Shown one piece after another: positions 28,747-50,059 of a stretch of DNA of 51,928 bases. The stretch is from Acidobacteriota bacterium. GTDB taxonomy: Bacteria > Acidobacteriota > Terriglobia > Bryobacterales > Bryobacteraceae. Position numbers and translations under genes: made by a program. How positions within the stretch are numbered: the stretch's first letter is position 1; each line of letters opens with the position of its first letter. The notes under the pieces were generated by a model that was given only the letters and a program-made list of their open reading frames with translations, had not been told where the DNA came from and ran no database searches. The DNA lies in NCBI GenBank assembly GCA_016213725.1, contig JACQZS010000280.1, positions 1 to 51,928 of the forward strand, given 5' to 3'.

Positions 28747-28771
28747 GACAGAAACCGCTAAACGATCCAGT

Positions 28772-29881: not shown

Positions 29882-29926
29882 TGGGGCGTTACTACTGCTT
29901 CCTAACTCAGAACCGGTGTAGCGAGG

Positions 29927-30430
29927 CTAGGCCGCCGCCGGCTTTTCAGGCGATGACGGCGCAGCCTCGGCGCTGGCCGGGGCAGAGTCTGTCGGGACTG
30001 TGCCTTCGGCGGCTGCGAGGACTGGAGCCGCGTCGGCCGCTTGTACGGCCTCACCGGTGCTGTCGGCGCCCTGAGTTGCGGAAGCGCTTACGGTGGACGA
30101 ATCCGTGGACGTTGTCGACGAATCGTACGAATCGGGATATTCGTAAGCCCCGTAGTCGTACGAAGAGTCGTAGTTGTAGCTACTGATCTCGCTGCTGTAC
30201 TCGTTGGTGACCTGCGAAAGGGTGTCAGCCTCCTTCTTGATGTCGGAGGTTTCCCTTTCCAGGTTCGCCATTTCCCTATGCCAGGTGTCCTTCAATTCAC
30301 TGGACGCCCGGCGAAACTCACCAATGGCCTTGGCAATCTGTTTGCCGACCTCAGGAAGCTTCTTGGGCCCGAACAGCAGCAACGCCAACACAAAAATGAC
30401 AAGAGTTTCTTGCCAGCCTAGCGGACCCAT
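29927..30430 (-). CDS. tatA: TatA/TatB-type translocase protein with Tyr/Ser/Asp-rich tail
   Basis: A 167-residue protein. The N-terminus has the single membrane helix (LVIFVLALLLFG), the FGPKKLPEVGKQ hinge and the amphipathic helix (IAKAIGEFRRASSEL) of TatA/TatB. The rest is unusual: from about residue 78 it is rich in Tyr, Ser, Asp and Thr (YDSSYDYGAYEYPDSYDSS), then an Ala/Pro/Glu-rich end. Whether it acts as TatA or TatB cannot be told. It is followed by tatC at 45 bp. Its 5' region is shared with the divergent rhamnosidase gene. Confidence 0.88.
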   Translation of the reverse strand: MGPLGWQETLVIFVLALLLFGPKKLPEVGKQIAKAIGEFRRASSELKDTWHREMANLERETSDIKKEADTLSQVTNEYSSEISSYNYDSSYDYGAYEYPDSYDSSTTSTDSSTVSASATQGADSTGEAVQAADAAPVLAAAEGTVPTDSAPASAEAAPSSPEKPAAA

Positions 30431-33829: not shown

Positions 33830-34372
33830 CTACTGCACGTTCTCCTGCGGATCCACCTTCTCCTGCAGCACCACCTCCACCAGCGCCACAATCTCATCCA
33901 GACTATCCCGAACCGGCGTCAGCACCGATACCATCCCAGCCCGCTTCCGCACCGTCACCCGTTCGCCGCTCGCCAGCACCCGCGCCATCTCCGGGAACAT
34001 ATCCTGGGTCAGCGCCCCCCACACCCAGAACTGGCTGATCTCGTGCCTGTTCCGGATCACCACCTGCACCTTTCCGGGCGCTCCCGCCAAGGGCATCCAC
34101 AGGTTCAGGTCGCAGGGCCCCGGGCACAGCCGGGAGAGCCGGATCAGCGACTTCTTCACTGCCACGAACGGCCCGTGATTCACGTCGTAATTGTCCGAGG
34201 CCGCCCACGGATCCCGCGGGTCTTTCTTGAGCATCGAGGCCGCTGACTTCGCGGTCTGAATCTGTTTCACCAGCTCCCCGTCCACCATCGCCGTCGCCGC
34301 CTCGGCCACAAACTGCACGTCGGCCGCGAACCCCGCGGCTGCCATTGCCAATCCCAGCACGAAGACCCTCAT
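33830..34372 (-). CDS. Small secreted protein of unknown function
   Basis: A 180-residue protein whose ATG overlaps the previous stop as ATGA (34369-34372). A short signal peptide (MRVFVLGLAMAAAGFAAD) is followed by a unique body; C83 and C87 in RLCPGPCDLN could form a disulfide or bind metal. I recognise no family. It begins with a lysine-rich helix-like stretch and ends with an acidic tail, so a periplasmic binding or adaptor role is possible. It is the last gene of the proposed ROK-TonB receptor-APC-M20-DUF4091 unit. Confidence 0.6.
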   Translation of the reverse strand: MRVFVLGLAMAAAGFAADVQFVAEAATAMVDGELVKQIQTAKSAASMLKKDPRDPWAASDNYDVNHGPFVAVKKSLIRLSRLCPGPCDLNLWMPLAGAPGKVQVVIRNRHEISQFWVWGALTQDMFPEMARVLASGERVTVRKRAGMVSVLTPVRDSLDEIVALVEVVLQEKVDPQENVQ

Positions 34373-36156
34373 CGCCGGCCCTCCTTCGCAAGCTCCATCA
34401 CATACGCCCGCACCCGGGCCCACGCCCCCGCGTCCAGTTTTTCGTCAAACCGCGCATCCTTCGGCATCGCCTCGCCGATGTCGGCGTTCGTCCATTCCGA
34501 TGGATCCCCGTCCGCCAGCCGCGGCCTCGGCGCATGCCAGTCTTTCACCTCGGTCCCGTTGTACCGCCGCGCCACCTCGGCCCGTAGCGCCGCTGCTCCC
34601 TTGGAAGCCGAATACGTCTCCAGCAGCGCCAGATCCTCCAGCGCATTGCGCTCCAGCTTCAGCCGCACGCTGGCCAGGGGTCCGGAGATCCCAAAGCGTT
34701 CTCCCGGATAAACCAGAGTCTCTCCTCCCCCTTGAAACTGGAACCAGGGATCTGCCCCCGGCGCCACCGTCAGCCACCGCACAAACCCATCCACCCCCAG
34801 CATCCACGTCTCCAGCAGCTCTTTCGTCACGTGCGACGACGGCCGCGCCACCGGCGGCGTCCCGCCGTAGATCCACACCGTGTCCCCCTGCTTCTTCCGC
34901 TCCAGCCCCTCTTCCAGGTACCAGCCGAACATCCCCCCGCCGCACACCCAGAAGTTGATCACCCCGGCCAGCTCCTTGAACTGGCGCTCCATCTGCCAGC
35001 TCGCATCCGTCCGGTACACCCACTCGACCGGCGAGCCGGCCGGCATCGCCGCCTTCATCAGTCTCTGATACTCCCGGAAGCGCTCGAAGTCCTTCGGAAA
35101 CCGCGTCTCGTCGCCATCCCATTCAAACGCCTTGTAGCGCTTCTTGTGATTGAAGAACAGCTCCAGCTTCGTCTTCGTCCAGCCCTTCGCCCGGAAGTGC
35201 GCCTCCATCTCGCCCACCACGTTCACGAACTCGCGCTCGTAGCCCGGCTCGCCCCACCACAGATACGATGCCGGCCACTCCGGATTGATCGGCGTGTACA
35301 CGTACGGAATCGGCTGCGCCCCGCGCCGCGTCTTCGCAAATGCGCTCCCGTCGAACAACGGCCCGTAGTGCTTGTCGTAGTACGTCCAATCCGCCACGTG
35401 CCTGTTCTTCCCCGCGCCCTCCAGCCGCGGAGCGAACTCCTCGCCCACCTTCCCGCCGTGTCCGTAACCCAGTTGATGGAACACGCCCCGGTGTTCGTAG
35501 TACACGCGGTGGTAGGCGTGGATCAGCCCAAAGAAGTCGTCGCTCAAATAGAACCCCGGCTTCTTCGCCAGCCCGGGATACTGCCCGCCGAACCAGCTCG
35601 TCCCGTACGCGTTGTGGTCCATCACCACCGCGTCCTTGTCCGGCACCCTGGCGTCCAGCACCCGCACCTCCACCGTCACGGCGGACTTCTGCCCGCCTGC
35701 CTCCAACACCACCGTGACCTTCTCCGCCCCGGCCCGCGCGTTCGCCGGCACCCACAGGTCCAGCCAGTAGCTCTGCGCCGTCTGCCCCGCCACTTTGTTG
35801 TCCGCCGCCGGCAGTTGCGCCGCCGCCGGCAGCGCCACCGGAATCAACGCATCCACAATGTACGCTTTGCTCTTGGGCAGGAAGTGGAACCACTCCCGGA
35901 ACAGCTCGGCCTCCACTCCGCCCGACACCGACAGCGTGTACGCCGCCGCCGCCGCGCTCGTCACCACCAGCCGGCACGACACGTGCGCCGCCCGCGCGCT
36001 CTCCACCACCATGGATCGCGCCGGCGCCACGCCCGCCCCTCTGTCCGCCGCCGTGATCTGCCCGAACGGATCCACCCTCACGTGCCCCGGCAGCACCGTC
36101 AGGTCCGCCCCCGCACACACCGCCGCCGCGGCCAGCGCCAACACGCCTAACTTCAT
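34369..36156 (-). CDS. Secreted DUF4091-type glycoside-hydrolase-like protein
   Basis: The ATG at 36156 (AGGAG 8 nt upstream) gives 595 residues starting with the signal peptide MKLGVLALAAAAVCAGAD. An N-terminal sandwich is followed by a TIM-barrel-like region (LELFFNHKKRYKAFEWDGDE, VEWVYRTDASWQ). DUF4091 is recognisable at the end: LGVDGFVRWLTVAPGADPW, ETLVYPGERFG and RLKLERNALEDLALLE. DUF4091 proteins are believed to be glycosidases with unknown substrates. It is 5 bp downstream of the M20 peptidase gene and overlaps the next gene by 4 bp. Confidence 0.78.
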   Translation of the reverse strand: MKLGVLALAAAAVCAGADLTVLPGHVRVDPFGQITAADRGAGVAPARSMVVESARAAHVSCRLVVTSAAAAAYTLSVSGGVEAELFREWFHFLPKSKAYIVDALIPVALPAAAQLPAADNKVAGQTAQSYWLDLWVPANARAGAEKVTVVLEAGGQKSAVTVEVRVLDARVPDKDAVVMDHNAYGTSWFGGQYPGLAKKPGFYLSDDFFGLIHAYHRVYYEHRGVFHQLGYGHGGKVGEEFAPRLEGAGKNRHVADWTYYDKHYGPLFDGSAFAKTRRGAQPIPYVYTPINPEWPASYLWWGEPGYEREFVNVVGEMEAHFRAKGWTKTKLELFFNHKKRYKAFEWDGDETRFPKDFERFREYQRLMKAAMPAGSPVEWVYRTDASWQMERQFKELAGVINFWVCGGGMFGWYLEEGLERKKQGDTVWIYGGTPPVARPSSHVTKELLETWMLGVDGFVRWLTVAPGADPWFQFQGGGETLVYPGERFGISGPLASVRLKLERNALEDLALLETYSASKGAAALRAEVARRYNGTEVKDWHAPRPRLADGDPSEWTNADIGEAMPKDARFDEKLDAGAWARVRAYVMELAKEGRR

Positions 36157-36161
36157 TTCGG

Positions 36162-37460
36162 TTACTCCTGATTGCACCAGCGATAGGTGAACAGCAGCAG
36201 CGCCTTGGCCGCGCTGTACAAAGTGTCCAGCTCCACGTACTCGTCCGCCAGATGCGTGTTCCCGCCGCGCGCGCCCCAGATTACCGCCGGCATCCCGAAG
36301 TGCTGCTGGAACACGTACATGTCGCAGGGCCCTTCAATCCCCGCGATCTCCGCTTCCTGCCCCAGCACCTCCCTGGCGCTTACCGCCATCTCCCGCAGCA
36401 CCGCCGCCTCCGCGTCGCACGACGAGCCCGGCAGCCACCTGAGCGGAAACTTCACCGTTGGCGCCCACGGGAACAGCTCCTTCCGCGCCGCCACCGTCTC
36501 CTCCAGCCACTCGAAGAACTGCGCGTCCACGTCCTCCAGGCTCTCGCCCGGCATCGCCTGCCAGTACAGCTCCACCATGCACTCCTGCGCCGTCGCCATC
36601 GGCTCGCTCGTCCCCCACGGGCCCGTGTGGATCTTCAGCACCGCCACCGGCACCGGGTTCTCCAATCCCGCATACGCATAGTGCTTCGGAGCCAGCCTGG
36701 TCCGCCGCTCCGCGAACACCGGAATCTGCGACAACAGCCACGCCAGTTGCAGCGCCACCCCCGCATCCATCCCGCCGGCCAGAATCCCCGCGTTCGGAAC
36801 CTGCAGCTTCAAATGCGCCGTCCGCCCGCCTCTCTGCGCCGGACAGATCCTGAGAAACGACGGCTCGCTCACCACCGCCGCATCGGCCAGATAGCCGCGC
36901 AGCCGCCCGGCCAGCGTCCCATTCACGCCGCCGAACTCCTCGTCCACCACGCTCTCCACCGTCAGGTCGCCTTTGAGTTGAACCCCCATCTCCGCCAGCG
37001 CCCGCGCCACCCACACATTCGTCGCGATCCCCGCCTTCATGTCGTTCGAGCCGCGTCCGTACAGCAGCCCGCCTTCGATCTGCGCGCCGAACGGATCCCG
37101 CGTCCAGTTCAGCGTCCCCTTCGGCACCGTGTCCACATGCCCCGTCAGAATCAACGACCGGCCGCCGCCGCTGCCCTTCTTCTGCCCCGCCAGATTCGGC
37201 CGCCCGCGGTAGTCCCGGCCCGCAAAGTACAGCGGATGCTCCTTCAAGCCGGTCACCGTGTCCAGCTCGTACAGGTCCGTTTCGAATCCCGCCCCCTGCA
37301 GCAGCCCTTCGCAGTACCGCTGGCACGCTCCCTCCGCCCCCGTCGGCGGCGTGTTCTCTGACCGCGTCCGCACCAGCGCCGCCAGAATCTCCACGAGATC
37401 CTCGCGGTGAGCGTCCGCGTATTGCAGCAGCTCTCTCTCCACCATCGTGTCAGCCGGCAT
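36162..37460 (-). CDS. M20-family metallopeptidase/deacylase
   Basis: A 432-residue protein of the ArgE/DapE/ACY1/CPG2 family. Metal ligands are H108 and D110 (LTGHVDTVPKG), D140 (GRGSNDMKAG), the E174/E175 pair (VVDEEFGG), E199 and a late His in GGNTHLADEY. The dimerisation lid lies between them. Such enzymes cleave peptide or N-acyl bonds in the cytoplasm. The gene overlaps the APC permease gene by 11 bp, so the permease may import its substrate, an amino acid derivative or small peptide. The exact substrate cannot be read from sequence. Confidence 0.9.
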   Translation of the reverse strand: MPADTMVERELLQYADAHREDLVEILAALVRTRSENTPPTGAEGACQRYCEGLLQGAGFETDLYELDTVTGLKEHPLYFAGRDYRGRPNLAGQKKGSGGGRSLILTGHVDTVPKGTLNWTRDPFGAQIEGGLLYGRGSNDMKAGIATNVWVARALAEMGVQLKGDLTVESVVDEEFGGVNGTLAGRLRGYLADAAVVSEPSFLRICPAQRGGRTAHLKLQVPNAGILAGGMDAGVALQLAWLLSQIPVFAERRTRLAPKHYAYAGLENPVPVAVLKIHTGPWGTSEPMATAQECMVELYWQAMPGESLEDVDAQFFEWLEETVAARKELFPWAPTVKFPLRWLPGSSCDAEAAVLREMAVSAREVLGQEAEIAGIEGPCDMYVFQQHFGMPAVIWGARGGNTHLADEYVELDTLYSAAKALLLFTYRWCNQE

Positions 37461-38844
37461 GCGAGGTGTCCTCCTCGAAGCTCTCCATGGCCTTCGGCGC
37501 CAGCCGGAAGCCGCGGGTGTTCACTGCCAGATACAGCACGCCCAAAGCCAGCCAGCCGAACCCGGCCAGCTTCGCCTTGTTCGTCAGATTCAACCACAGG
37601 AACGTGCACACCGCCGCGCCCATCAGCGGATACACCAGGTGCTCCAGCGCCTGCCGCCCTTCCCTCTGCCTCAGCCGCACGTAGTAATGGCGCACCACGC
37701 TCAGATTCACCAGAATGAAGCCCGACAGCGCTCCGAAGTTCAGCAACTCCACCGCCAATTGAAACCGGAAGACCAGTGACCCCGCCAGCGTCACCGCCGC
37801 CATCACCATCAATCCCCTCACCGGAGTCGAGTGCTTCGGGTCGATCGTCCCGAACACCCGTTTCGAGATCACTTCATCGCGCCCCATCCCCAGCAGCAGG
37901 CGCGATGCCCCGGCCTGTCCCGTGAGCGCGCTCGCCAGCCCCGCCACCAGCAGCACAAACGTCAGCGCGCCGAACATCCACTGCCCGCCGATCCGCGTGC
38001 CGATGTCCAGAATCGCCGTGTCCGGCTGCGGAAACGCCGCATAGTCCGGCCACACCAGCGCCGCCAGGTAAACCGTCGCGATGCAGATCACACCCTGGAA
38101 GACGCACACCGCCACCGTCGCCCACCCAATGTCCTTCCTTGGGTTCAACGCATCCTCCGCCAGCGTCGAAATCGCATCAAAGCCAATATACGAAAGCGTC
38201 GCCACCCCCGCGCCCAGCAGCATCGGACCGGGGGCGAACGTCTCCTTCCGGAAGAACCCGCGCGTGTCCAGCAATCCCGCCCAGCCGTGCGCCGCCACTA
38301 CGTAGTAGCCGGCCAGAGCCAGGAACGCCGCCGCGCAACCCGTCATGATCGCCATCAGCCAGGCGCTGGCCCGCGCCGTCATCCTGATGCCGCGCAGATT
38401 CACCAGCGTGATGCCCACCGTAAACAGCACAGCCCAGACCCACTCCGGCACCGCCGGCAGCAGCCTCGCCGCGGTGAGCGCGGCATAGATCACGCTCAGC
38501 AACGGGATCAGGAAGTAGTCGAGAATCATCGCCCAGCCTGCCAGAAAGCCAACGTGTTCGCTCAAGCCTCTGCGCGCGTATGTGTACGTCGAGCCTGCCG
38601 ACGGATAGGCCGCCGCCATCTTGCCGTAGCTCGCCGCCGTGAAGAACATCGCCACCATCGCCACGACATAAGCCAGCGCCGCGTGTCCGCCCGAAAGGTT
38701 CTGCACGATGCCGAACACCGGGTAGGGCGCCGTCGGTGTCAGCATCACCAGCCCGTACAGTACCAGATCCCAGCGCGTCAGCACCCGCCGGAATCTCTTC
38801 GTTGCTTCCGCCTGCCCGCAAATTGGAGGGTTTGATGATTCCAT
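37450..38844 (-). CDS. APC-family amino acid/amine permease
   Basis: The ATG at 38844 gives 464 residues; an in-frame GTG at 38871 would begin inside the 38857-38885 hairpin and is less likely. Twelve hydrophobic segments are visible. YVVAMVAMFFTAASYGKMAA and SAGSTYTYARRGL match the APC superfamily, with SYIGFDAISTLAEDALNP in the middle. Members import amino acids, polyamines or small peptides by cation symport. It is 55 bp after the TonB receptor gene and overlaps the M20 peptidase, which supports an uptake-and-cleave role for one substrate. Confidence 0.88.
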   Translation of the reverse strand: MESSNPPICGQAEATKRFRRVLTRWDLVLYGLVMLTPTAPYPVFGIVQNLSGGHAALAYVVAMVAMFFTAASYGKMAAAYPSAGSTYTYARRGLSEHVGFLAGWAMILDYFLIPLLSVIYAALTAARLLPAVPEWVWAVLFTVGITLVNLRGIRMTARASAWLMAIMTGCAAAFLALAGYYVVAAHGWAGLLDTRGFFRKETFAPGPMLLGAGVATLSYIGFDAISTLAEDALNPRKDIGWATVAVCVFQGVICIATVYLAALVWPDYAAFPQPDTAILDIGTRIGGQWMFGALTFVLLVAGLASALTGQAGASRLLLGMGRDEVISKRVFGTIDPKHSTPVRGLMVMAAVTLAGSLVFRFQLAVELLNFGALSGFILVNLSVVRHYYVRLRQREGRQALEHLVYPLMGAAVCTFLWLNLTNKAKLAGFGWLALGVLYLAVNTRGFRLAPKAMESFEEDTSHAG

Positions 38845-38856
38845 TGCGAAGTCCCA

Positions 38857-38885
38857 GGCGGAGCCGCTCACGCGGCGGCTCCGCC
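38857..38885 (-). other. GC-rich hairpin between TonB receptor and APC genes
   Basis: GGCGGAGCCG (38857-38866) and CGGCTCCGCC (38876-38885) form a 10-bp stem (11 with the next C-G pair) that ends about 12 nt before the ATG of the permease. It has no T-run. It may weaken read-through from the highly expressed receptor to the permease or protect the 3' end of the receptor mRNA. Confidence 0.5.
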
Positions 38886-38899
38886 CGGAGATCCGGATT

Positions 38900-41800
38900 C
38901 TACCAGCTCAGCCGTAGCGAGAACTGGATGATCCTCGGACCGTTGGTCTGCACGCTCATGTCCTGCAGGCCGGTCGTCGCGTTGGGATTCGTGTCGATCG
39001 GGTGGTTGAACGCGTTGAAGAAGTCCGCCGTGAACCGCAGCTTCACCTGTTCGGTGATCGCGAAGTTCTTGAACGCCGACAGGTCCGTCGACCACGCGCC
39101 CGGCCCGAGGAAGAACGCTCGCGCATTCGAGTTCACCGTGTCCGTGATCGGGGTCTGCCGCACCGTCCCGTTCGCCAGCGTCTGCGGCAGCCGGTTGTCG
39201 AAGTTGGCGCCCAGCGGGTGCGCCAGCCGCTTGCTGCGGTCCAGCGGAACCAGCGCCTGCAGCGCATTCTGGTCGACGTTCGTCGCCAGCAGCGGATTGA
39301 AGTCGCCGGCCCAGTACAGCCGCTGGTTGCGGTTGCTGTACTTCAGGTCCAGCCGCTGGTCCGAGGAAAGCGAAGGATTCCCGAACAGGTACAGCCCGGC
39401 GCTGACGCCCGTCCAGTAGCCGCTGCGCCAGTCGCCCATCCCGGCCAATTGCCAGCCGCCGATGAGCAGGTCCCAGCCCTTCGCCACGTTGCCGCCGTAC
39501 TTCTTGCCCTTGCCGAACGGCAGATCGTACACCGCGTTCCACCGCATGTGATGCGGTGGAATGTTGGTGGAATTCTGGTAGCCCAGCTTCAACCGGTCGT
39601 CGTAGCTCGAGTTGCTGCCGCCCAGGATCTGGATGTTCTCCGGAACCTGGAAGATGCCGTTGGTCGAGTTGATGGCGGCGCCGCCGGAGGTGAAGCCGCC
39701 GGCATCCGACGTCGTCAGCGAACGGGTGTACGTGTAGAAGTACTGGAAGGCCAGGCCGCTCGAGAAACGCCGCTCCACTTCCGCCTGCAGCGAGTTCGTG
39801 TTCGAATAGCCCGTCTTGTTCGTCGCGTTGTTGATGCTCCAGTCTTTGTTCACTCTCATCAGATCGCGGTTTCCGGGAGGCGCCGTCTTGGTCGTCTGCA
39901 CCCAGTTGTACTCCGCGATCCTCGAGTTCGAACTGAACTTCTGCTCCATGCCGGAGGAGTGGTTGCCAATGTAGCTCAACCGCATCGCCGTCATCCGGGC
40001 CAGCTCATACTCCAGCGTGAAGTGCCAGGACTGCGCCCGGCCGTCGCGCCAGTTGCGGAAGTCCATCGGCACCACGCCTTGCGCGCTCAACGGCAGTTGC
40101 ACGAGGCCCTGCGTCGGAATGGTGACCTTGCCGATGTAGTAGCTGTCGAGAGGCTTCGTCCGGATGCCATAGCTGCCCGTCCCGTCGACCGTCGTCACCG
40201 GGTTCTCGTACCTGAGGTTGAACGGCGGGTTGGTGCGGGAGGCCTGCAGAATCTGCGACAGCGGCATGGTCCAGAAGAACTCGCCATAGCTGCCCCGCAG
40301 CACCATCTTCGGATTCAACTTGAATGCCGCGCCCAGACGCGGCCCGAAGTTGTTGTTGTCCGCCGGCAGCAGCGCGCCGGGGATCCCGAGGTCGTTCGCC
40401 GTCTTCCAGCTCAATCCGCGCGCCGCCCAGCTGGCCAGCACCGAGGGAGGAATGCCCTGGATGCTGGTCATCTTCGTATCGTTCGGCGTGATCACCTGGA
40501 ACACTTTGTCGAGCGTCGTCAGGTCCACGTTGACCATCCTGTCGTACTTCTCCTTGTAAGGAGTCCACTTGTCCCAGCGCAGGCCCAGGCTGAGGGTCAG
40601 CCTCGGGCTCACCTTCCAGGTGTCTTCCGCGTACAGCCCGATCTCCTTCTGCCGGAAGTAGAAGTAGCCGCGGTTGAACTGCGCCGAGTAGTAGCTGGCC
40701 AGGCCGAGCGCCATCGTGGCGAAGCCGTCGCCCGTGTAGGACTTCGACCAGTCGCTGTCGGCATCGTAGAGCGAGGTCCACTCATGGCCGAAGTCGTGCT
40801 CGCCCATCGCCTGCTGCAGCTCGCGGATGTTGTTCTGCTCCGTCCTGTACTGCCCGCCGAACTTGATCGTGTGGGCGCCCTTCACCCAGGTGAAGTTGGG
40901 CTGCAGGATGTAGGCCGTCAGCATCTCGTCCTTGCGATTGTCGGCATCGTAGGTGAAATACGTGGACCAGTCTTCGTTGTGCGCGTACATGGTCGGCCAG
41001 CCGCTCTCGCCGAACGGATTCGGCAGGCCCAGCTGGTTCGCCCACGGGGTGCTGTCGGCCAGGGTGCCGGAGCTCTTCGGCGCCCGGTTCACCGCCAGCA
41101 TGATGTCGCCGATGAACGTGTTCGTGAAGGTCTTGGTGTAGCGCAGGGAGGCGTTGTAGACGTTGGCGTCGTTGCGGCTGGTGCCGTAGCCGTTCTGGAT
41201 GTCCTCCCGCGGGCCGCCGTACACGCCGCCCATCTGCTTGTAAGCGCGCTGGCTGTGCGTATAGCGGAACGTCAGCAGGTTGCGCTCGTTGAAACTGTGG
41301 TCGCCGCGGATGGTCAGGTTGTTCATGTTCGTCTTCACCGGATAGTAGGTGGCGAGGTTCAACCCGAGATAAGGATTGGTGCTGGACGTCGGCGCGTGCG
41401 TGACGCTGTTCATCGTCGCCAGGAACGGGCTCAGACGGCTGGTGGGAATGACGTTGCCTACGAAGGGCGTCCTCGCCCCGCTGGCCGTCGTCGACATCGG
41501 ATCGTAGATCGTGTACTTCACGCTGTTGGCGTCTGTGATGTTGCTCAGGTCGCCGGCGAACATGCTCGCCGTCGGCACGGTGTCCTGGTAGAAGCTCTTC
41601 TCCCGCTGCCGCAGCCCTTCATAGGCCGCGAACCAGAAGCTCTTGTTCCGGCCGTCGTACAGCTTCGGGATCATCACCGGGCCGCCGGCCGACACGCCGA
41701 ACTCGTTGCGGGCCAGAAACGCCGACGTATTCCCGTCCTGCCGCGCTCTCGCGCGCAGGCCGGCGCCGTTGTTGCGGAAAGTCTCGAAGGCCGCGCCGTG

Positions 41801-42511
41801 GAAGGCGTTGGTGCCGCTCTTGGTCACCACCGTCACCGTGGCCGGCCGCGAATACTGCGCGCCGCTGCCGACGGTTTCAATGCGGAACTCCTGAACCGTG
41901 TCCAGGCCGGGCTGCACGCGCGCCATGCCGCCGCCGAAGCGGTCAACCAGCGACACGCCGTCCAGCGTCATTTCCGCGGAGCCCACCTTCATGCCGTTGA
42001 TGCGCGGGTTTCCGCCGCCTTCCACGCCCGGGGTCAAATCGAACAGCGTGGTGATCGACCGGCCGTTCAACGGCAGCTGCTGGATGCGGACGTTGTCCTT
42101 CACGCTGCCCACCTCCGCACTCTCCGTGTTGATCAGCGGAGCCGCGGCCGTCACTTCCACCAGCGAATCCACGCTGCCCACCACCAACGAGGGTTCGACC
42201 ACGGCCGTCTGGCCGGCCACCACCGTCAGCGTGCCTTGCCATTTCTTAAAACCCTTGGCTTCCACGTCCACTTTGTAATCGCCGGGCACCAGGCCCTGGA
42301 AGAGGAAGAAGCCGACGTCGTTGCTGACGGACTCGCGAACCACGTTCGTGGCGACGTGCGTCAACGTGACCTTCGCACTGGGCACGGCGGACTTGGCCGG
42401 ATCGTAAACGGAGCCGCGGATGACGGCGTTTCCGGATTGTGAGTAGACGGGCAGCATGATGCAAATCAGCAGCACCGCCAGGAAGCAGGGAGATTTAGCG
42501 AAACCAACCAT
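38900..42511 (-). CDS. TonB-dependent receptor with N-terminal carboxypeptidase-regulatory-like domain (Oar-like)
   Basis: The ATG at 42511, preceded by GAGG, gives 1203 residues with a signal peptide (MVGFAKSPCFLAVLLICIML). Residues ~27-110 form the Ig-like domain (GNAVIRGSVYDPAKSAVPSA). A plug follows (IQQLPLNGRSITTLFDLTPG, MTLDGVSLVDRF) and then a 22-strand-type barrel to a final aromatic residue (FSLRLSW). Acidobacteria have many of these; they import large glycans, glycopeptides or siderophores with TonB energy. No SusD partner is adjacent. The ROK gene ends 29 bp upstream, so it is probably controlled as one unit. No TonB box is obvious. Confidence 0.93.
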   Translation of the reverse strand: MVGFAKSPCFLAVLLICIMLPVYSQSGNAVIRGSVYDPAKSAVPSAKVTLTHVATNVVRESVSNDVGFFLFQGLVPGDYKVDVEAKGFKKWQGTLTVVAGQTAVVEPSLVVGSVDSLVEVTAAAPLINTESAEVGSVKDNVRIQQLPLNGRSITTLFDLTPGVEGGGNPRINGMKVGSAEMTLDGVSLVDRFGGGMARVQPGLDTVQEFRIETVGSGAQYSRPATVTVVTKSGTNAFHGAAFETFRNNGAGLRARARQDGNTSAFLARNEFGVSAGGPVMIPKLYDGRNKSFWFAAYEGLRQREKSFYQDTVPTASMFAGDLSNITDANSVKYTIYDPMSTTASGARTPFVGNVIPTSRLSPFLATMNSVTHAPTSSTNPYLGLNLATYYPVKTNMNNLTIRGDHSFNERNLLTFRYTHSQRAYKQMGGVYGGPREDIQNGYGTSRNDANVYNASLRYTKTFTNTFIGDIMLAVNRAPKSSGTLADSTPWANQLGLPNPFGESGWPTMYAHNEDWSTYFTYDADNRKDEMLTAYILQPNFTWVKGAHTIKFGGQYRTEQNNIRELQQAMGEHDFGHEWTSLYDADSDWSKSYTGDGFATMALGLASYYSAQFNRGYFYFRQKEIGLYAEDTWKVSPRLTLSLGLRWDKWTPYKEKYDRMVNVDLTTLDKVFQVITPNDTKMTSIQGIPPSVLASWAARGLSWKTANDLGIPGALLPADNNNFGPRLGAAFKLNPKMVLRGSYGEFFWTMPLSQILQASRTNPPFNLRYENPVTTVDGTGSYGIRTKPLDSYYIGKVTIPTQGLVQLPLSAQGVVPMDFRNWRDGRAQSWHFTLEYELARMTAMRLSYIGNHSSGMEQKFSSNSRIAEYNWVQTTKTAPPGNRDLMRVNKDWSINNATNKTGYSNTNSLQAEVERRFSSGLAFQYFYTYTRSLTTSDAGGFTSGGAAINSTNGIFQVPENIQILGGSNSSYDDRLKLGYQNSTNIPPHHMRWNAVYDLPFGKGKKYGGNVAKGWDLLIGGWQLAGMGDWRSGYWTGVSAGLYLFGNPSLSSDQRLDLKYSNRNQRLYWAGDFNPLLATNVDQNALQALVPLDRSKRLAHPLGANFDNRLPQTLANGTVRQTPITDTVNSNARAFFLGPGAWSTDLSAFKNFAITEQVKLRFTADFFNAFNHPIDTNPNATTGLQDMSVQTNGPRIIQFSLRLSW

Positions 42512-42540
42512 CGGGACTACCTCGTTGTTGTCGATCAGAC

Positions 42541-43752
42541 TCAATTCCGACCCAGATCGCAGATCAGGTCGTGGGCAAGACTCTTCGCGGCGCCCATGGC
42601 GCCGATCAGGGCCGCATCGGCGCCCAGCGCCGAAAGCTCGACGCGCATGGGCCACGGGATGACACGCCCCACCAGTTCTTGGATCCGGTCCTTGACCAGG
42701 GCGAACACGTCCCCGGACAGCACGATCAGTTCCGGATCGATGACCGCGGCCAGATCGGCCACCGCGATGCTCAACTTCTCAGCCAGTTCGTCCAACACGC
42801 GCGCCGCGACGGGATCGTCGTGGCGCATCGCCTCAGCCAATTCGGCGGCCAGATCGGCGCCCGCCATCTCGCCGGCGCCGGCCCGGGCCGTGCTCACTCT
42901 CTGCAAAATCTGATCGCTGGCGATGGCAGACTCCAACAGGCCGCGGTCAATGGTCCCATCGGCCGGAGCCGTGGCCCGGTCGAACACCATGTGCGCAATT
43001 TCGCCGGCCGCCCAATGCGTGCCCTGATACAACTGCCCTCCGAGCACAAGGCCTGCGCCAATGCCGGTGCCCAACCGGATGAGCACGAAGTTCCGGACGC
43101 CGCCGGCCAGGCCGGCATGCATCTCGCCGAGCGCGGCCAGGTTGACGTCGTTTTCCACCAGCGTTTCCACGCCGAAGCGCTTCGCCAAAGTCCTGCGGAC
43201 TTCCACGTTGCGCCAGTGGAAGACGTTGCCGGCCTCCAGCACCGTGCCCGTGCGCGCGTCCACGCGGCCCGGGGCCGCCACCGAGATGCAACGCAGTTTG
43301 CGCCGCCGTCCCCGGCCGCGCGAAAGCAAATCCTGAACTCCGGCGCAAAGCGCGTCCAGCACATGCTCCGCGCCGCGGGCCGGGCGGATGGCACAGTTCT
43401 GCGAATCCATCAGGTTGCCGTCGAGATCCGCCAGCCAGATTCTCACCTGCGCGCTGCCGATCTCCACCGCCGCCAGCGCTCCGCCGCCGGCGTCGAACCG
43501 CAGCATCGTGGGCGGCTTGCCGCCGCGCGCGTCCGGCTCGCCTGCGCCGTCTTCCACGACGATGCCGCGCTCCATCATGTCGGCCACCAGGCTGGAGACA
43601 GTGGGCTTCGTCAGGCCGCTCTGCCGCGCCAGCTCGGCCCGCGACACCGGTCCGCCCATGCGGATCATCTCCAGCAGCAGCGCGGAGTTCATTTGCCGCA
43701 TGCCGGATGCCCGCATCCGGCCCGAGTGGGTGTTTGGAGCTGCGCGTTTCAC
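42541..43752 (-). CDS. ROK-family (NagC/XylR-like) transcriptional regulator
   Basis: A 403-residue protein with an N-terminal winged helix (about 23-63: ARQSGLTKPTVSSLVADM). The ROK domain follows: VENDVNLAALGE, LGTGIGAGLVLGGQLYQG and GEIAHMV with H254. The Cys-rich zinc motif that normally follows (C-x-C-G-x2-G-C) is missing, and the N-terminal ATP loop is degenerate, so it is a regulator rather than a sugar kinase. The ligand is likely a sugar or amino sugar. It is the first gene before the TonB receptor, with an inverted repeat 33 bp upstream. Confidence 0.9.
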   Translation of the reverse strand: MKRAAPNTHSGRMRASGMRQMNSALLLEMIRMGGPVSRAELARQSGLTKPTVSSLVADMMERGIVVEDGAGEPDARGGKPPTMLRFDAGGGALAAVEIGSAQVRIWLADLDGNLMDSQNCAIRPARGAEHVLDALCAGVQDLLSRGRGRRRKLRCISVAAPGRVDARTGTVLEAGNVFHWRNVEVRRTLAKRFGVETLVENDVNLAALGEMHAGLAGGVRNFVLIRLGTGIGAGLVLGGQLYQGTHWAAGEIAHMVFDRATAPADGTIDRGLLESAIASDQILQRVSTARAGAGEMAGADLAAELAEAMRHDDPVAARVLDELAEKLSIAVADLAAVIDPELIVLSGDVFALVKDRIQELVGRVIPWPMRVELSALGADAALIGAMGAAKSLAHDLICDLGRN

Positions 43753-43784
43753 GGGAAGCCTTCCGATGCGGTCACAGCAAAGGT

Positions 43785-43813
43785 TAGGTAAGTTCGTTTA
43801 CTTACCGTACCTA
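43785..43813. promoter_or_regulatory. Nested palindromic operator upstream of the ROK gene
   Basis: GGTAAGT (43787-43793) and ACTTACC (43800-43806) form a perfect 7-bp inverted repeat with a 6-bp spacer. A second repeat, TAGGTA (43785-43790) and TACCTA (43808-43813), overlaps it. The AT content is far above the surroundings. ROK regulators bind such sites and repress their own operon. The site lies 33-61 nt before the ROK start and covers the expected start of transcription. Confidence 0.6.
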
Positions 43814-43817
43814 GTTG

Positions 43818-43846
43818 AGTGGACCACGGACCGGGATTTGTGTCAA
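43818..43846 (-). promoter_or_regulatory. Candidate promoter of the ROK-receptor unit
   Basis: On the minus strand a perfect TTGACA is found at 43846-43841. Seventeen bases further is TCCACT (43823-43818), a weak -10 with 3 of 6 matches. Transcription would start within the nested palindrome, consistent with repression by occlusion. The -10 is poor, so a different sigma factor is possible. Confidence 0.4.
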
Positions 43847-43932: not shown

Positions 43933-46137
43933 TTATTCCTCCAGCCGGGCGTCGGCGAGACCCCGGACGGGGACGTTGTGCGCCGCGGCATAGGCGCGCG
44001 TGAGCTTCGACAGATCGGCACACCAGCGGGGGAGGGCGAGGCTGCGCTCGGCGGCGGCCATGTAGCCCAGGCCGGGGGTGCGGTCGGCCAGATGGTCCTT
44101 GGTGTCGTCGAGGACATGGATGAACTTGCGGCCGTTCACTTCGCGGCCCTTGGGCCACTGGCTCTTTTCCCAGGCGGCAACGACCTGCGCGAAGACGGCT
44201 TCGCCGTTGGTGGACGCCGACTGGGCTTTGTTGTGCGCGGCGACGAGATGTCCGACGGCCTGCGCATGCTGGCCCTTGGCGGCGGCGGCAGCGGCGGCGG
44301 AGAGGTCCTTTTCGGCGCCGGCAAGCGCGGAGAAGAGCTGCCAGTGATGGCCGGTGAAGCGGGCCAGAACGAGCATCATCTCGAGGTTGTATCGATTGCG
44401 TTCGACGTTGAGCATGGCCTCGAGGAGCGAGTGGACGAGCTGGTCGTTCTGCAAGGCGAGCGCGGACGCCTCGCCGAGGTAGCCTTTGTAGCGGGCGGCG
44501 AAGCGCGGCTGGAAGGCGAGCGTTGCGGGGTCGGGCAACACGGGCAACTCCAGAGTGAGGTCCTGGCGGGCGGTGCCGATGCCGGGACCTTCGGAGTTGC
44601 CGTAGCCGGGCTTACGGGCGCGCGAAGTCACGCGGTCCCAGGTGCGCTGCCAGGCGCGGGCCTGGCGCTGGAGAGCGCGGTAGTCTTCCACCAGTCCGGC
44701 GGTGTGGCCGCCATAGTAGATACGCATGAACTCGGCGGCCTGCTGCTCCGGCGTGGGCGAGCCGGGGTGCCAGGCCCAGGCGGCGACGGCGCTCCAGCCG
44801 AGCCAGAAGGATTCGTTGTGGAGGCCGGAATCGCCCCAGGCCGCGCCGAAGGCGCCGATGGGATTCATGCGCATGGCGCGGGCGGTGTTGAAGGTGTGGA
44901 ATGCCGCGGTGAGGCGGCCGGCGGTGAAGACCTCTTCGAACTCGCCCATGACGACGCCGGGCGGCAGGCTTTCGATGGCGAAGTGATCGGGGAAGAGGAA
45001 CTCTGCGCCTTGCATGGAGACGTAGATGAGCTGGCGCATGCCTTTGCGCATTTCGATGTCGACGAAGCTGTCGTCACCGACGACGCCGTCGATCACATCG
45101 GCGGGGATGCGTTCAAGGTCCTTGGCGAGCAGCGGGTATTCGAGCCAGGCGAGCATGCGGCGGCCGCGGGCGGCGAGATGATCGTGAGCGCGGATGGCAA
45201 AGTTGGCCCACTCGGCGCTGCGGTTGGCGGGGTTGTAGGGCAGGGTGCAGGCTGAGCCGATGCCGGCGTAGTAGTTCTCGTCGGTTGAGACGAAGAAGTA
45301 GTCGATGCCTTTGGTGGCGGCGATCAGGTCGTCGTACATCTGGAAGATCAGCTTGTAGGTGTCTTCGCGGCAGGTGTCGGAGCTGTAGTTGTTGCCGTCG
45401 GCGCGGAGGTGGGCGAACTGCGGATGCTTCAGGACGTAGGCGAAGTGCGCGGGGGACTGGACAATGGGGACGATCTGGATGTAGCGTTCGAGGCCGTAGT
45501 TGACCAGCTCCTGAAGCTCGGCGGGCGTGAAGGCGCCCGGCGCGCCGATGATGGGGTTGGACGGGTAGGAGAACTTGTCTTCGAGTTCGAAGCCGATGGT
45601 GTTGACCTTGAAGCGCGCAGCCCAGTCGAGGTAGCGCTTGAGGGTCTCCATGCGGTCCTGGTGGTGCTTGGTGTCCCAGTGGAGGAAGCGCAGGTTGAGG
45701 CGGGGCCAGTCTTCGATTTCACATTCGGGCAGGGTGTTGCCGGCGGCGAGCTGGAGCAGCGTCTGGACGCCGTAGAAGAGGCCGGCTTCGCCGTTGCCGA
45801 TGATCTCGATGCGGCCGGGCGCGACGGTGAGCTTGTAAGCCTGCGAGGAGACTTCGGCGGGCGCGGCGTCGATGGCACCGGGGGCGGTGCGTAGGCTGAT
45901 GAAGCTGGGCGAGTCCACGGTGAAGTTGGCCTTGAGGCCGGCTTCGAGGGTGCGGCGGGCGATGCCGCTGGGCGCCTGAATGCGCCAGGGCGTGGCGAGG
46001 GAGACGTCGCCGGGTTTGAGAGAAACGCGCTGGGGCGCGGGCAGGACGGCGTGGCCGCGGAGGAAGAGGGCGGTGGGCTCGGCGGCGTTCGCGGCGAAGA
46101 CGGCGGCGGCGGTGCAGACGAGGAGGTAGCGCGGCAT
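43933..46137 (-). CDS. Secreted GH20-like beta-N-acetylhexosaminidase family protein
   Basis: A 734-residue protein with a signal peptide (MPRYLLVCTAAAVFAANAAE), a GH20b-like N-domain (about 30-140: VLPAPQRVSL, GLFYGVQTLLQL) and a TIM barrel. The catalytic Asp-Glu pair is D286-E287 in YFFVSTDENYY. Substrate residues around it differ from the typical GGDEV. It probably removes terminal GlcNAc or GalNAc, though the substrate may differ. The C-terminal ~150 residues are helical and unassigned. It is the last gene of the GH5-like/esterase/GH20 operon, 11 bp after the alpha/beta hydrolase. Confidence 0.8.
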   Translation of the reverse strand: MPRYLLVCTAAAVFAANAAEPTALFLRGHAVLPAPQRVSLKPGDVSLATPWRIQAPSGIARRTLEAGLKANFTVDSPSFISLRTAPGAIDAAPAEVSSQAYKLTVAPGRIEIIGNGEAGLFYGVQTLLQLAAGNTLPECEIEDWPRLNLRFLHWDTKHHQDRMETLKRYLDWAARFKVNTIGFELEDKFSYPSNPIIGAPGAFTPAELQELVNYGLERYIQIVPIVQSPAHFAYVLKHPQFAHLRADGNNYSSDTCREDTYKLIFQMYDDLIAATKGIDYFFVSTDENYYAGIGSACTLPYNPANRSAEWANFAIRAHDHLAARGRRMLAWLEYPLLAKDLERIPADVIDGVVGDDSFVDIEMRKGMRQLIYVSMQGAEFLFPDHFAIESLPPGVVMGEFEEVFTAGRLTAAFHTFNTARAMRMNPIGAFGAAWGDSGLHNESFWLGWSAVAAWAWHPGSPTPEQQAAEFMRIYYGGHTAGLVEDYRALQRQARAWQRTWDRVTSRARKPGYGNSEGPGIGTARQDLTLELPVLPDPATLAFQPRFAARYKGYLGEASALALQNDQLVHSLLEAMLNVERNRYNLEMMLVLARFTGHHWQLFSALAGAEKDLSAAAAAAAKGQHAQAVGHLVAAHNKAQSASTNGEAVFAQVVAAWEKSQWPKGREVNGRKFIHVLDDTKDHLADRTPGLGYMAAAERSLALPRWCADLSKLTRAYAAAHNVPVRGLADARLEE

Positions 46138-46148: not shown

Positions 46149-48197
46149 TTAGTCGATCAGGCGGGCATAGGCCGCCGCTTCGGGCTCTTCGATCTGGCGC
46201 ACATGGACTTGCGCTTTGGGATAGATCTCTTTGACGGCGCCGGCGGGCATGGCGGCGCCCAGCGGGGTGGCGAGGTCGATGAGGACGATGCGGCCGACGT
46301 GGAGCGCGGCGAGGGCGGGTAGATCGTAGTCTTTTAGGGCGCCGGGGACGAGGCCCTCAAAGACGGCGCGGTGGACTGGGTTTTCGACGATGGCGCTATA
46401 GGAGGCGACCATCTGGTCGAGGATGAGATCCTTGAACGGCACTCCGGCGGCGGCGGCGTGGAGCAGCGCGGGGGCGGCGTTGCCCTGGGCGGCGCCGTGG
46501 ATGCGGTTTCTATCGACGCCGGGGCGGGCGGCGAGCAGGTAGAAAGCGCGTTGGATGTCGTAGGCGCGCTGGGCGGCGAGGCTGGTGTCGAGCAACACGG
46601 ACGTCATGGCGGAGTCATAGTCTCCGAACCAGGAAGTCCAACTGTCGCCCTTGGTGGCGCCGAGGGGCCGGGTTTCGCCGAAGCCGCGGGCATCGATGGC
46701 GAGAACGGCGGCGCCGCGCCGGGCGAGGGCTTGAATCTCAGCCCACGCTGCGCGCTTGCCGCGGGCGGAGACGAGCACCACGCCCGGACGAAGGGCGGTA
46801 GTAGAGGCGGCGGCGGAGACGAGGACGGCGGGCACGACGATGCCGGGTTCGGATTCGTAGAGGAATTTCTCGATGTTTAGCCCGCCGCGGGATTCGTGGC
46901 CGTAGGGGCGGATGACGGGCGGCCTGGTCTCTTCGCGCCACTGGATGCGGCGGCGGACGATGTCGCGCGTGGTGGCGGCGGGGGTGTTGAGCGCGCGGGC
47001 GCGGGCTCGATTGAGGGTGTAGACGGTTTCGCCGTTGTAGGTTGTGGCGACCTGGCCGGTTTTGGTGACGGCGAGTTCGTCCACGGTGGCGGGCGCGACG
47101 GGCGGGTCGCCGGCGGGTGCGGGCCGGCCTTGGAGCCAGCGGCTGAACCACTGGTAGGAGGCGAGGCGGAGTTCGGCGGTGTAGCCGTGGCCTTCGTCGG
47201 TCTCGGTCATGGCGAACTTTTCTGGCGCAGGAGCGTAGGCGGGCTTAACGGCCTCGAAGGCGGAGCGTGCGCCTTGAATGGAGAAGAAGTCGCGGATGGC
47301 GGAGAGCATCATGTAGGGCTTGGGGGCGAAGGCGCGGATGAAGTCGGCGTGTTCGAAGCCGTTCGAGAGGAAGCCGGGGATGCACTGTTCGGCATCTTGG
47401 GGACCAATGGTTTCGAGGAGGCGCTGCCAGGAGGTGATGAAGCAGGAGGGGGCTGCGACGTGGATGCGGGGGTCGAGCGCGCCGAGGTAGGCGGTGTGGG
47501 TGCCGCCGCCGGAGTTGCCGGTGAGGCCGATGCGGGACTTGTCGACTTCGGGGCGGGAGAGGAGGTAGTCGAGCGCGCGGGTGGCGTCCCAGATGGTGTA
47601 GCGGGCGAGGGAGTCACCAACGGCGAGGCACTGGATGCCCATGATGGTGTGCTCTGTGGTGGAGGGAGGAACCTTGGAGCCTTGGAGGGCTTCGTCCCAG
47701 TGCTGAATGCGTTCGCCCTGGCCGTTCTGGTCCCAGGTGAGGGCGACGAAGCCGCGGCGGGCGAAGGTGGCGAGGATCTGCTGCCACACGGGGTAGGCTT
47801 TGGCGCCGGGCTCATGGCCGATGGGGAAGAGGATTGCGGGATAGGGCGCGGCGCCGGTGGTGGGGAGGTAGAGATTGGCGGTGACGTAGAAGCCGGGCTG
47901 GCTTTCGAAGACGATCTTCTCGACGCGATAGCCGTCGCGCTGGAGAGTGCCGGTGACGCGGGCGTTGAGGGGCGTGCGGTCGGGTAGACCGCCGAGGCCT
48001 TTCAGGAAGCCGGCGCGGAACTCATCGGGGGAGGCGGGCGTGGCTCGATGGCGCTGGCGGACCTGCTGCTTGAGGTAGTTGGGCAGCATGTCGCGGAGGC
48101 CGCGGCCGTCGGTCTGGTTGGTGAGGAAGTCTAGGGTGGGCTCCTGGGCGAAGGCGGCGGTGAGGAACAAGGGGCAGAGAGCGGCGGCGAGTTTCAT
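46149..48197 (-). CDS. Secreted tandem alpha/beta hydrolase (acetyl-xylan-esterase-like), second domain degenerate
   Basis: A 682-residue protein with a signal peptide (MKLAAALCPLFLTAAFAQ) and two alpha/beta-hydrolase domains. The first (about 90-350) has nucleophile S229 in GLTGNSGGGTHTA, with D303 and H337 as likely triad partners. In the second (about 440-660) the nucleophile elbow reads GAAQG near 568-572, so Ala replaces Ser and this half is probably inactive. Related proteins are acetyl xylan esterases or glucuronoyl esterases. The gene overlaps the GH5-like gene by 4 bp and is followed by GH20, which suggests a joint attack on a decorated glycan. Confidence 0.82.
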   Translation of the reverse strand: MKLAAALCPLFLTAAFAQEPTLDFLTNQTDGRGLRDMLPNYLKQQVRQRHRATPASPDEFRAGFLKGLGGLPDRTPLNARVTGTLQRDGYRVEKIVFESQPGFYVTANLYLPTTGAAPYPAILFPIGHEPGAKAYPVWQQILATFARRGFVALTWDQNGQGERIQHWDEALQGSKVPPSTTEHTIMGIQCLAVGDSLARYTIWDATRALDYLLSRPEVDKSRIGLTGNSGGGTHTAYLGALDPRIHVAAPSCFITSWQRLLETIGPQDAEQCIPGFLSNGFEHADFIRAFAPKPYMMLSAIRDFFSIQGARSAFEAVKPAYAPAPEKFAMTETDEGHGYTAELRLASYQWFSRWLQGRPAPAGDPPVAPATVDELAVTKTGQVATTYNGETVYTLNRARARALNTPAATTRDIVRRRIQWREETRPPVIRPYGHESRGGLNIEKFLYESEPGIVVPAVLVSAAASTTALRPGVVLVSARGKRAAWAEIQALARRGAAVLAIDARGFGETRPLGATKGDSWTSWFGDYDSAMTSVLLDTSLAAQRAYDIQRAFYLLAARPGVDRNRIHGAAQGNAAPALLHAAAAGVPFKDLILDQMVASYSAIVENPVHRAVFEGLVPGALKDYDLPALAALHVGRIVLIDLATPLGAAMPAGAVKEIYPKAQVHVRQIEEPEAAAYARLID

Positions 48198-49954
48198 GGG
48201 TTGTTCTTGTGGATGATCTTGGCGGCGATGTCAGAGCGGAAGGGCGGCGGCTTGAGTTCGAGGCCGTAGCCGAAGTGATTGGAGGCGCGGACGCGGCCGT
48301 GGTCCTGGCGGACGATTTTGCCGGTGGCGGTGTCCCACCACTCAATGGCGTATTCGCCGTCGTTGAGGCCGGTGAAGTTGAGGGAGGCGGCGGACTGCGC
48401 CGGGCCGGATTCCGCCTTGCCATCGACGATGCGGAAGGCGAGGGGATCGTGGAGCCAGAGGAGGGCGCGATCGGAGGCGACGAGGCCGTGGAGCTGGAGC
48501 GTGACGGGGAGCGAGGGGCGGGAGAGGCCGGGGCGGCGCCAGGAGCGTGCGGGGAGGTCTTCGCCGTCGAGGAAGGCGGCGAGGGGCTGGTAGTGGTGAT
48601 AGAGATCGAGCGGCTCGACGTAGTTGTGCCACCACCAGTAGAGGCCGGTGCCGGCGGCGCCGCTGAGGGCGGAGGCCCAGATGGTGTCGTGGAAGTGGCG
48701 GCCTTCGGTGTCGATCTTGACGGCGAGAGCGGGGTCGTCGACGCCCTGTTCGCCGAAGAAGTAGGGCTTCGCGAAAGAGCTCATGAGGTGAGCGGTGTCC
48801 TGGAGGGTGTACTCGGCGGCGTCGTAGGGGAGGTCCCAGTAGGAGTGGCCCTGGACGATGTCGATGTCTGGGATGGCGAACATGAGGGGGTCGCGCCAAG
48901 AGGTGGTGATGAGGTGGCGCCAGGGGTCGATGGATTTGAGGTAGGCGGCCATCTCGCGGTGCCAGGCGGCGTTGGCGGCGGGATCGAAGCCCTCGTTGTT
49001 GTCGACCTCGTTCCAGAGTTCCCAGGCGGCGAGGTGGGTGGACCAGCCCCAGCGGGCGACGGAGTAGCGGAGGCGGCGGCGGACGAGTTCGCGGGCCTTT
49101 TCGTTGGTGAAGTAGTCCTGGGGCGTTCGGCAGGGGCCGCCGTTGGCGGCGTTGTAGGGATTGCGGGGCCAGCGGTGCTTCTGGCGGGTCTGCCACCAGA
49201 CGGTCATCTCGAAGGCGAGCTGGTAGTAGATGCCCTGGCGGGCGGATTCGCGATCGACTTCGTCGAGGCGCCAGGCGGAGGCGAGGTCGTAGCGGCCGAG
49301 TCCGGTGGATTGGGTTTCGAGAGGGAAACCGGCGAAGCTGGAGTCGCCCGGGGCGGCGACAATGGAGATGTCTTGCGGGACGTAGTATTCCTGCCAGAGG
49401 CGGACGTAGTTGGCGCGGGCGCGGGCGAGCTTGGGAAGAATGCGGGCGTAGTAGTAGGTGCCTTCGCGGTTCTGATACATGCAGAGGTTTTCGCCGATGG
49501 GAAAGAAGGGGCGGCCGGAGGCATGCTCGAGGTAGGCGGGATTGCGGGGGCTGCGGCGGAGGAAGCCGGGGTGGGTGGATTCAGCGATGTTGACGGTGAG
49601 GGGATCGGATTGGCCGTCACGGCCATCGATGGTCCAGACGGCGGAGACGCGATGGGGTCCGGCTTCGGGGCTGGAGAAGCGCAGGCGCCAGCCGGGCGGG
49701 CCTTGGGCGGTGAGTTGTTCGATGCGCTGGACGCCTTGGGCTTCCGGGTTCTTCAGGGCGCGGGTGAAGTGCTGGTACCAGAAGGCGGGGACGCGGAGGG
49801 ACTTGCCGGAGGGGAGGGTGATGGCGGCGTCGACGCGGGCGGTGTTGGGATCGAAAGGATTGGCGGCGGCGGGGGCGGGGATGGAGAGTTCGACCAGCTC
49901 ATAGCGGCCGGCGGGCGGCGAGAGAAGTTGCAGAGCGGCGAGGGCGACGAGCAT
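48194..49954 (-). CDS. Secreted GH5-like glycoside hydrolase with DUF5060-type N-domain
   Basis: The ATG at 49954 gives 586 residues with a short signal-like start (MLVALAALQLLS); an upstream in-frame ATG at 50152 adds a segment unlike protein that overlaps the divergent esterase. The N-terminal ~120 residues resemble the DUF5060 sandwich. The TIM barrel has FFPIGENLCMY, acid/base E316 in WELWNEVDNNEG and nucleophile E402 in YFFGEQGVDD, both expected for clan GH-A. Substrate is unknown; related proteins are cellulases, mannanases or uncharacterised. First gene of the operon with the tandem esterase and GH20 genes. Confidence 0.8.
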   Translation of the reverse strand: MLVALAALQLLSPPAGRYELVELSIPAPAAANPFDPNTARVDAAITLPSGKSLRVPAFWYQHFTRALKNPEAQGVQRIEQLTAQGPPGWRLRFSSPEAGPHRVSAVWTIDGRDGQSDPLTVNIAESTHPGFLRRSPRNPAYLEHASGRPFFPIGENLCMYQNREGTYYYARILPKLARARANYVRLWQEYYVPQDISIVAAPGDSSFAGFPLETQSTGLGRYDLASAWRLDEVDRESARQGIYYQLAFEMTVWWQTRQKHRWPRNPYNAANGGPCRTPQDYFTNEKARELVRRRLRYSVARWGWSTHLAAWELWNEVDNNEGFDPAANAAWHREMAAYLKSIDPWRHLITTSWRDPLMFAIPDIDIVQGHSYWDLPYDAAEYTLQDTAHLMSSFAKPYFFGEQGVDDPALAVKIDTEGRHFHDTIWASALSGAAGTGLYWWWHNYVEPLDLYHHYQPLAAFLDGEDLPARSWRRPGLSRPSLPVTLQLHGLVASDRALLWLHDPLAFRIVDGKAESGPAQSAASLNFTGLNDGEYAIEWWDTATGKIVRQDHGRVRASNHFGYGLELKPPPFRSDIAAKIIHKNNP

Positions 49955-50020
49955 TGGTTTGTAAGCCGACTTTCCTAACTGGGGATTAGAGCATACCTGA
50001 GAACGAATCGCAATGCGGAT

Positions 50021-50050
50021 TTCAGAAAAGAGGGGAGTGTCTGCTATTCT
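50021..50050 (+). promoter_or_regulatory. Candidate promoter of the esterase gene
   Basis: TTCAGA (50021-50026) and TATTCT (50045-50050) are 18 bp apart, each matching 4 of 6 consensus bases. Transcription would begin about 50057, just before the ATG at 50060. The whole divergent gap with the GH5-like gene is 105 bp (49955-50059). Confidence 0.3.
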
Positions 50051-50059
50051 GGCGTCGCC

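Follow-up and report, generated by a model that had tools for sequence, protein, structure and literature searches.

What are six tightly packed minus-strand genes, the last two coding for proteins without a curated family, doing side by side in a soil bacterium of the Acidobacteriota? They lie on JACQZS010000280.1 (51,928 nucleotides; assembly GCA_016213725.1, family Bryobacteraceae), a complete contig from a draft assembly of 6.05 Mb and hereafter the window; the nearest named relative is a Paludibaculum metagenome-assembled genome (MAG), whose DUF4091-type protein is 87% identical. The six open reading frames encode, in leftward order, a ROK regulator, a TonB-type receptor, an APC permease, an M20 hydrolase, a protein labelled DUF4091 and a small secreted protein; their starts (43752, 42511, 38844, 37460, 36156 and 34372) and the spacings between them (29 bp, 55 bp, -11, 5 and -4) exactly reproduce the genes, order and gaps of a first-pass annotation, which had proposed a dedicated uptake and processing pathway, and a Pfam scan matched ROK, AA_permease, Peptidase_M20 and the receptor (PF13620 plus PF25183). 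The unit is probably a variant of the carbohydrate utilisation operons of TonB type, built around a new and probably obligate pair of an enzyme and a sensor-domain-like protein. The first-pass annotation treated all six genes as the unit; its conserved core is the last two, a GH123-like enzyme and a PAS/Cache-fold protein.

The larger of the two proteins (34369..36156, minus strand) is exported, and its DUF4091 label stands at superfamily level, through the family profile and the fold, and fails for the window protein alone: against Pfam the latter has no match to PF13320 (DUF4091/GH123_cat) and a sole match, at E 0.012, to a GH123 N-terminal domain, and under the curated cut-off it falls outside PF13320, which 15 of 43 relatives match weakly (best E 1.4e-4). 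The profile of its family matches the solved beta-N-acetylgalactosaminidase NgaCa (8k2f) at E 4e-30. Its AlphaFold2 (AF2) model, of predicted local distance difference test score (pLDDT) 92, has the jelly-roll and TIM-barrel fold of beta-N-acetylgalactosaminidases (beta-NGAs); in the VIA fold search it reached Z 23.8-26.3 with all 17 listed GH123/NGA structures, the best being NgaDssm at 26.3, and the next fold scored 11.5. By sequence alignment the Asp349-Glu350 pair is invariant in 43 members and corresponds to the DEP of intermediate and canonical members, as expected of a GH123-superfamily catalytic Asp-Glu motif. Alignment with intermediate paralogues places an invariant FFNHKKRYKAF stretch, the most conserved part of the family, between strand beta4 and this pair. 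A replacement of the catalytic Asp-Glu by Asn-His (NHKK), where strand beta4 ends, was considered and ruled out by the intermediates FFINGLDEP and FNNK...WWLLDEP; because these show the Asp-Glu behind an insertion, Asp349-Glu350 is assigned as the catalytic motif. The glycosidase-like character first proposed for this protein is thus borne out by profile, fold and catalytic pair, and the protein is, as judged from alignment and model, a predicted divergent GH123-superfamily enzyme that keeps its Asp-Glu behind an insertion.

In solved GH123-type enzymes, the Asp-Glu pair performs substrate-assisted catalysis (PMC11087588). With GH123 enzymes and beta-NGAs (NgaCa, NgaDssm, BvGH123, NgaP; PMC11087588), the window enzyme shares the two-domain fold over its whole length (Z 24-26), the C-terminal motifs of DUF4091/GH123_cat and the catalytic Asp-Glu; it differs in its low identity (~10-18%), in ten inserted residues (FNHKKRYKAF) that separate strand beta4 from the Asp-Glu, and in its obligate partner protein. 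The text of PMC11087588 does not mention Acidobacteria or Planctomycetes and does not describe the window subfamily. Six of the loci (L024, L025, L134, L136, L137 and L138) carry large GH123-superfamily paralogues in open frames of 936-1394 residues, in which FNNK, then a longer insertion and then WWLLDEP precede helix alpha4.

The partner (33830..34372, minus strand) is an exported protein of 180 residues whose only recognisable element is a signal peptide. Pfam, NCBIfam and PDB sequence searches with it returned nothing convincing and no curated family, and only its fold is informative: the AF2 model (pLDDT 90.7) is a single, stand-alone PAS/Cache (PDC) domain, with Z 11.9 to the sensor domain of WalK and ~11 to CitA and DctB in the VIA search, coverage being ~130 of the 180 residues. 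Compared with the sensor domains of WalK, CitA, DctB and Tlp3, the fold is shared (Z ~10-12 over 118-135 residues) at an identity of ~5-13%; unlike them, the small protein stands alone, without a membrane or kinase/chemoreceptor part, and is tied to a glycosidase. It does not belong to a sensor kinase or chemoreceptor, as no such kinase or receptor domain occurs in any of the loci.

The tie between the two proteins is strict. The comparison covered 65 fetched loci with a DUF4091-type protein and 121 relatives, including 73 genomes from within the family. Where the contig extends far enough, the small protein adjoins the enzyme or is fused to it; the unmatched cases are contig-end cuts, except for one weak case in Paenibacillus. 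Enzyme and small protein are found together in the same genomes across the 121 relatives, and within the family both occur in an identical 22 of the 73 genomes (6.6 expected by chance; p 4e-19, uncorrected for relatedness), one of which holds the larger gene only as a fragment at a contig end. In five loci the small protein is fused behind the enzyme, three in Planctomycetota (L092, L096 and L097) and two in Acidobacteriota MAGs (L093 and L094). A hydrophobicity test finds signal peptides on both proteins in most Acidobacteriota and on neither in Bacillota and several Planctomycetota. Fusion, strict co-occurrence and a shared compartment together suggest that the two form a physical complex, in which the small subunit may be allosteric, substrate-binding or active-site-completing. 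Whether a PAS/Cache domain of sensor type has become an obligate subunit of a new GH123-superfamily glycosidase, two-component or fused, in Acidobacteriota, Planctomycetota and Bacillota, is a question on which we find belief and doubt about evenly balanced. Since its fold most resembles the domains with which sensor kinases and chemoreceptors bind ligands, the small protein could instead be a periplasmic sensor or scavenger that binds the product and takes part in signalling; this is quite improbable for a protein that lacks a membrane or signalling domain, is fused to the enzyme in five loci and, like the enzyme, is cytoplasmic in Bacillota and in some Planctomycetota. Should the two proteins form a complex, a sensory domain would here have become part of a glycosidase; in either event, a testable function can now be named for two proteins without a curated family, a GH123-superfamily branch and its constant PAS/Cache-fold partner. 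In the open-licence literature, no paper was found that joins DUF4091 with Acidobacteria, or a Cache domain with N-acetylhexosaminidase.

Are the other four genes part of the same system? The six-gene order is identical in five loci counting the window (L052, L053, L057 and L078 being the others), with protein identities of ~62-91%, and recurs in several genera of the family, so that synteny extends well beyond the nearest relatives. The first gene (42541..43752, minus strand) encodes a winged-helix ROK-family transcriptional regulator of NagC/Mlc-like type (PF00480 E 1e-41; MarR_2 helix-turn-helix E 3e-11), whose best NCBIfam match is NagC, under the cut-off of that model. Upstream of it, a candidate -35 box TTGACA (43841..43846, minus strand) is followed after 17 bases by a weak -10 TCCACT (43818-43823, minus strand); TTGAC(A/T/G) plus these 17 bases is preserved upstream of ROK in L052, L053, L055, L057 and L078. 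Position 43846, given in the first-pass annotation as the border of the unit, is the first base of this box and marks no gene boundary. Between box and gene lies a candidate ROK operator, the perfect palindrome GGTAAGT-N6-ACTTACC (43787..43806), which overlaps the regulator's own promoter as expected of a ROK repressor with its own operator. It is the single perfect copy in the 6.05 Mb assembly, and at up to 3 mismatches the window holds one match against 0.02 expected; five further loci have a related palindrome at the equivalent position, their proteins being for the most part 62-91% identical. A position-weight scan for further operators gave, beyond the five building sites, only weak matches near chance level; the profile was built from these very sites, which rank first by construction, and the independent evidence is their position and side-by-side conservation. 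A generic consensus scan found no full sigma-70 promoter, and fewer terminators than in shuffled sequences. Because the conserved operator adjoins the TTGACA box, the proposal of one regulated operon holds, and the arrangement supports a single, putatively ROK-controlled operon. Repression by ROK of its own promoter would extend over the six genes and leave out the GH20 group, which starts further upstream.

Of the readings considered, the likeliest is a repressor-controlled operon for the uptake and degradation of N-acetyl-hexosamine (HexNAc) glycoconjugates, sugars bearing an amide or amine group, a proposal to which we give roughly even credence; glycosidases, M20 hydrolase and permease together suggest as substrate a beta-HexNAc glycan that carries an amide or amine. 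ROK, the first product of the operon, would repress it at the palindrome 43787-43806. The receptor would import an oligosaccharide with a beta-linked N-acetylhexosamine across the outer membrane, and in the periplasm the complex of GH123-like enzyme and PAS/Cache-fold protein would cut the beta-N-acetylhexosaminide by substrate-assisted catalysis at Asp349-Glu350, the neighbouring GH20-like enzyme trimming further. The PuuP-like permease would then import an amine- or aminoacyl-bearing product, whose amide bond the cytoplasmic M20 enzyme would split, and the freed sugar or amine would lift ROK repression. Of the pathway first proposed, the theme of a sugar plus an amide or amine survives this analysis, and the type of permease, the core genes and the borders do not.

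Several observations weigh against such a HexNAc operon. Most loci hold the pair without APC, M20, ROK or this receptor: near the DUF4091-type gene, M20 occurs in 13 of the 65 loci, APC in 12, ROK in 13, GH20 in 16 and this receptor type in 22, and all six families are present in the fetched neighbourhood of 6. The co-occurrence p values ignore shared ancestry. AF2 confidence is among the lowest in the inserted active-site loop (residues 331-350), although a conserved loop of low confidence would fit one that is ordered only with ligand or partner. Permease and hydrolase, being PuuP-like and ArgE-like, could also act on an amine that has nothing to do with sugars. Finally, the receptor (38900..42511, minus strand; Oar/CarboxypepD_reg type; PF25183 E 7e-158, PF13620, PF00593) belongs to a type of which the genome encodes at least 60; its adjacency therefore carries little weight, and its choice as a telling component was overrated. 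As the pair stands without the other genes in most loci, the six-gene unit is a lineage-specific assembly. The pair could even be the whole functional unit, with APC, M20, receptor and ROK as mere frequent neighbours serving other substrates in the CAZyme-rich (carbohydrate-active enzyme) regions of Bryobacteraceae; the loci that hold the pair alone, the many other recurring CAZyme-type genes of the window and the very large receptor family all agree with this. It is nevertheless rather unlikely in view of the tight spacing and overlaps, the conserved operator ahead of all six genes, the presence of the pair in 16 of the 17 genomes with APC, and the paralogous cassette in which APC and M20 again accompany a canonical GH123. 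By genome, the DUF4091-type gene also accompanies M20 in 16 of 20 and GH20 in 18 of 25; APC, M20 and GH20 co-occur with the pair at above-expected frequency, often on another contig or in another order, and L038, L040 and L041 have a diverging GH20-APC-M20 arrangement.

The permease (37450..38844, minus strand), first taken to be of amino-acid type, scores 274 bits against E. coli PuuP (35% identity) and 261 against PlaP, and only 42 and 32 against FrlA and YbaT; among these four APC members compared directly, it is by homology of the PuuP/PlaP (putrescine:H+ symporter) type. The M20 protein (36162..37460, minus strand; PF01546 E 2e-25; PDB 3pfo E 5e-31) is an ArgE/DapE-like amidohydrolase/deacylase with HxD, DMK, DEE, SEP and NTH metal-site motifs; it has no signal peptide and is assigned to the cytoplasm. 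A role for it as a stand-in for NagA was considered and explains nothing, 40 of the 41 genomes having a NagA-like gene (above cut-off in 16). Together the two proteins might mark an operon for an amine or polyamine conjugate, in which a polyamine, (glyco)sylated or acylated, or a uronoyl-amino compound enters through the permease and has its amide split by the M20 enzyme, the glycosidases doing no more than detach it from sugars. The kinship of the permease to PuuP, far from FrlA and YbaT, and of the hydrolase to ArgE/DapE would suit such a route, as would the amide-cleaving families (M20, M28, creatininase, racemase) that adjoin the pair in other lineages. We consider a polyamine conjugate unlikely, since the unit holds no polyamine catabolic genes, APC specificity shifts easily between close relatives, so that 35% identity to PuuP does not give the substrate, and ROK regulators usually sense sugars. 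Compared with the E. coli Puu putrescine pathway, PuuP is a full-length homologue of the permease; the other Puu enzymes are absent from the unit, and PuuD is by annotation unrelated to M20.

The best evidence that the functions of the proposed HexNAc operon belong together appears to be a second, paralogous grouping. In five genomes (G002, G006, G007, G015 and G016), a canonical GH123 stands beside an APC-M20 pair, and in four of them (all but G015) a ROK gene lies next to APC; APC-M20 and GH123 thus appear, from gene content, to have been linked twice independently. This points to soil Acidobacteriota using HexNAc glycans with an amide or amine, as yet an uncharacterised class. The second cassette (L162-L166) also contains a PuuP-like APC and AXE-like esterases (group k4), likened to the AXE1-like protein of the window by sequence description only. 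Four of the genomes (G006, G007, G015 and G016) also have the first cassette, or parts of it, alongside. The setting of the pair in Paenibacillus speaks for the HexNAc operon too: in P. oceani and P. koleovorans, sugar-type ABC permeases and a solute-binding protein lie near it, and a creatininase-family or an M20 protein adjoins it, the M20 gene following the pair in one strain.

TonB-dependent carbohydrate utilisation (CUT) loci and the polysaccharide utilisation loci (PULs) of Bacteroidota gather a receptor, glycosidases, an inner-membrane transporter and a sugar-type regulator in one cluster, as does the present unit. The window unit differs from them in lacking SusD, in pairing a PuuP-type permease with M20 and in its CarboxypepD_reg/PF25183 receptor. 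No SusD match was found among the window genes scanned, so that with its receptor alone the unit is not a SusC/SusD locus of Bacteroidota type; the missing SusD, first offered as a distinguishing feature, is ordinary for this receptor type.

The borders first chosen enclose the six-gene operon and omit three same-strand genes directly upstream, including its strongest companion. This is a GH20-like beta-N-acetylhexosaminidase upstream of the operator (43933..46137, minus strand; PF02838 E 5e-18, PF00728 E 1e-8), which matches the PDB GH20 structure 7bwg at E 5e-15 and has an Asp-Glu pair at residues 286-287. Behind it in the same leftward row come an AXE1-like alpha/beta hydrolase, an esterase (46149..48197, minus strand; PF05448 E 3e-15), and a DUF5060-like putative glycosidase (48194..50152, minus strand; PF16586 E 6e-5, below cut-off), a gene that also adjoins GH20 and the DUF gene in L035. 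At 50060-51928, a plus-strand PF00756 esterase, of a family that recurs near the pair elsewhere, is cut by the contig end. On the other side, leftward genes at 19431-27076 encode a GH42-like protein, a DUF5107-TPR protein and an unmatched protein of 647 residues; members of each of these families also neighbour the GH123-like/PAS-Cache pair elsewhere in Bryobacterales, which suggests a larger CAZyme region around it. The two CAZyme groups of the window are separated by genes for TatA- and TatC-like proteins and for a GntR/FCD regulator (27997-30430). In a Planctomycetota MAG (L101:2156-9813), the pair is adjoined by sulfatase-modifying-factor-like, Ser/Thr kinase-like and BNR-repeat proteins.

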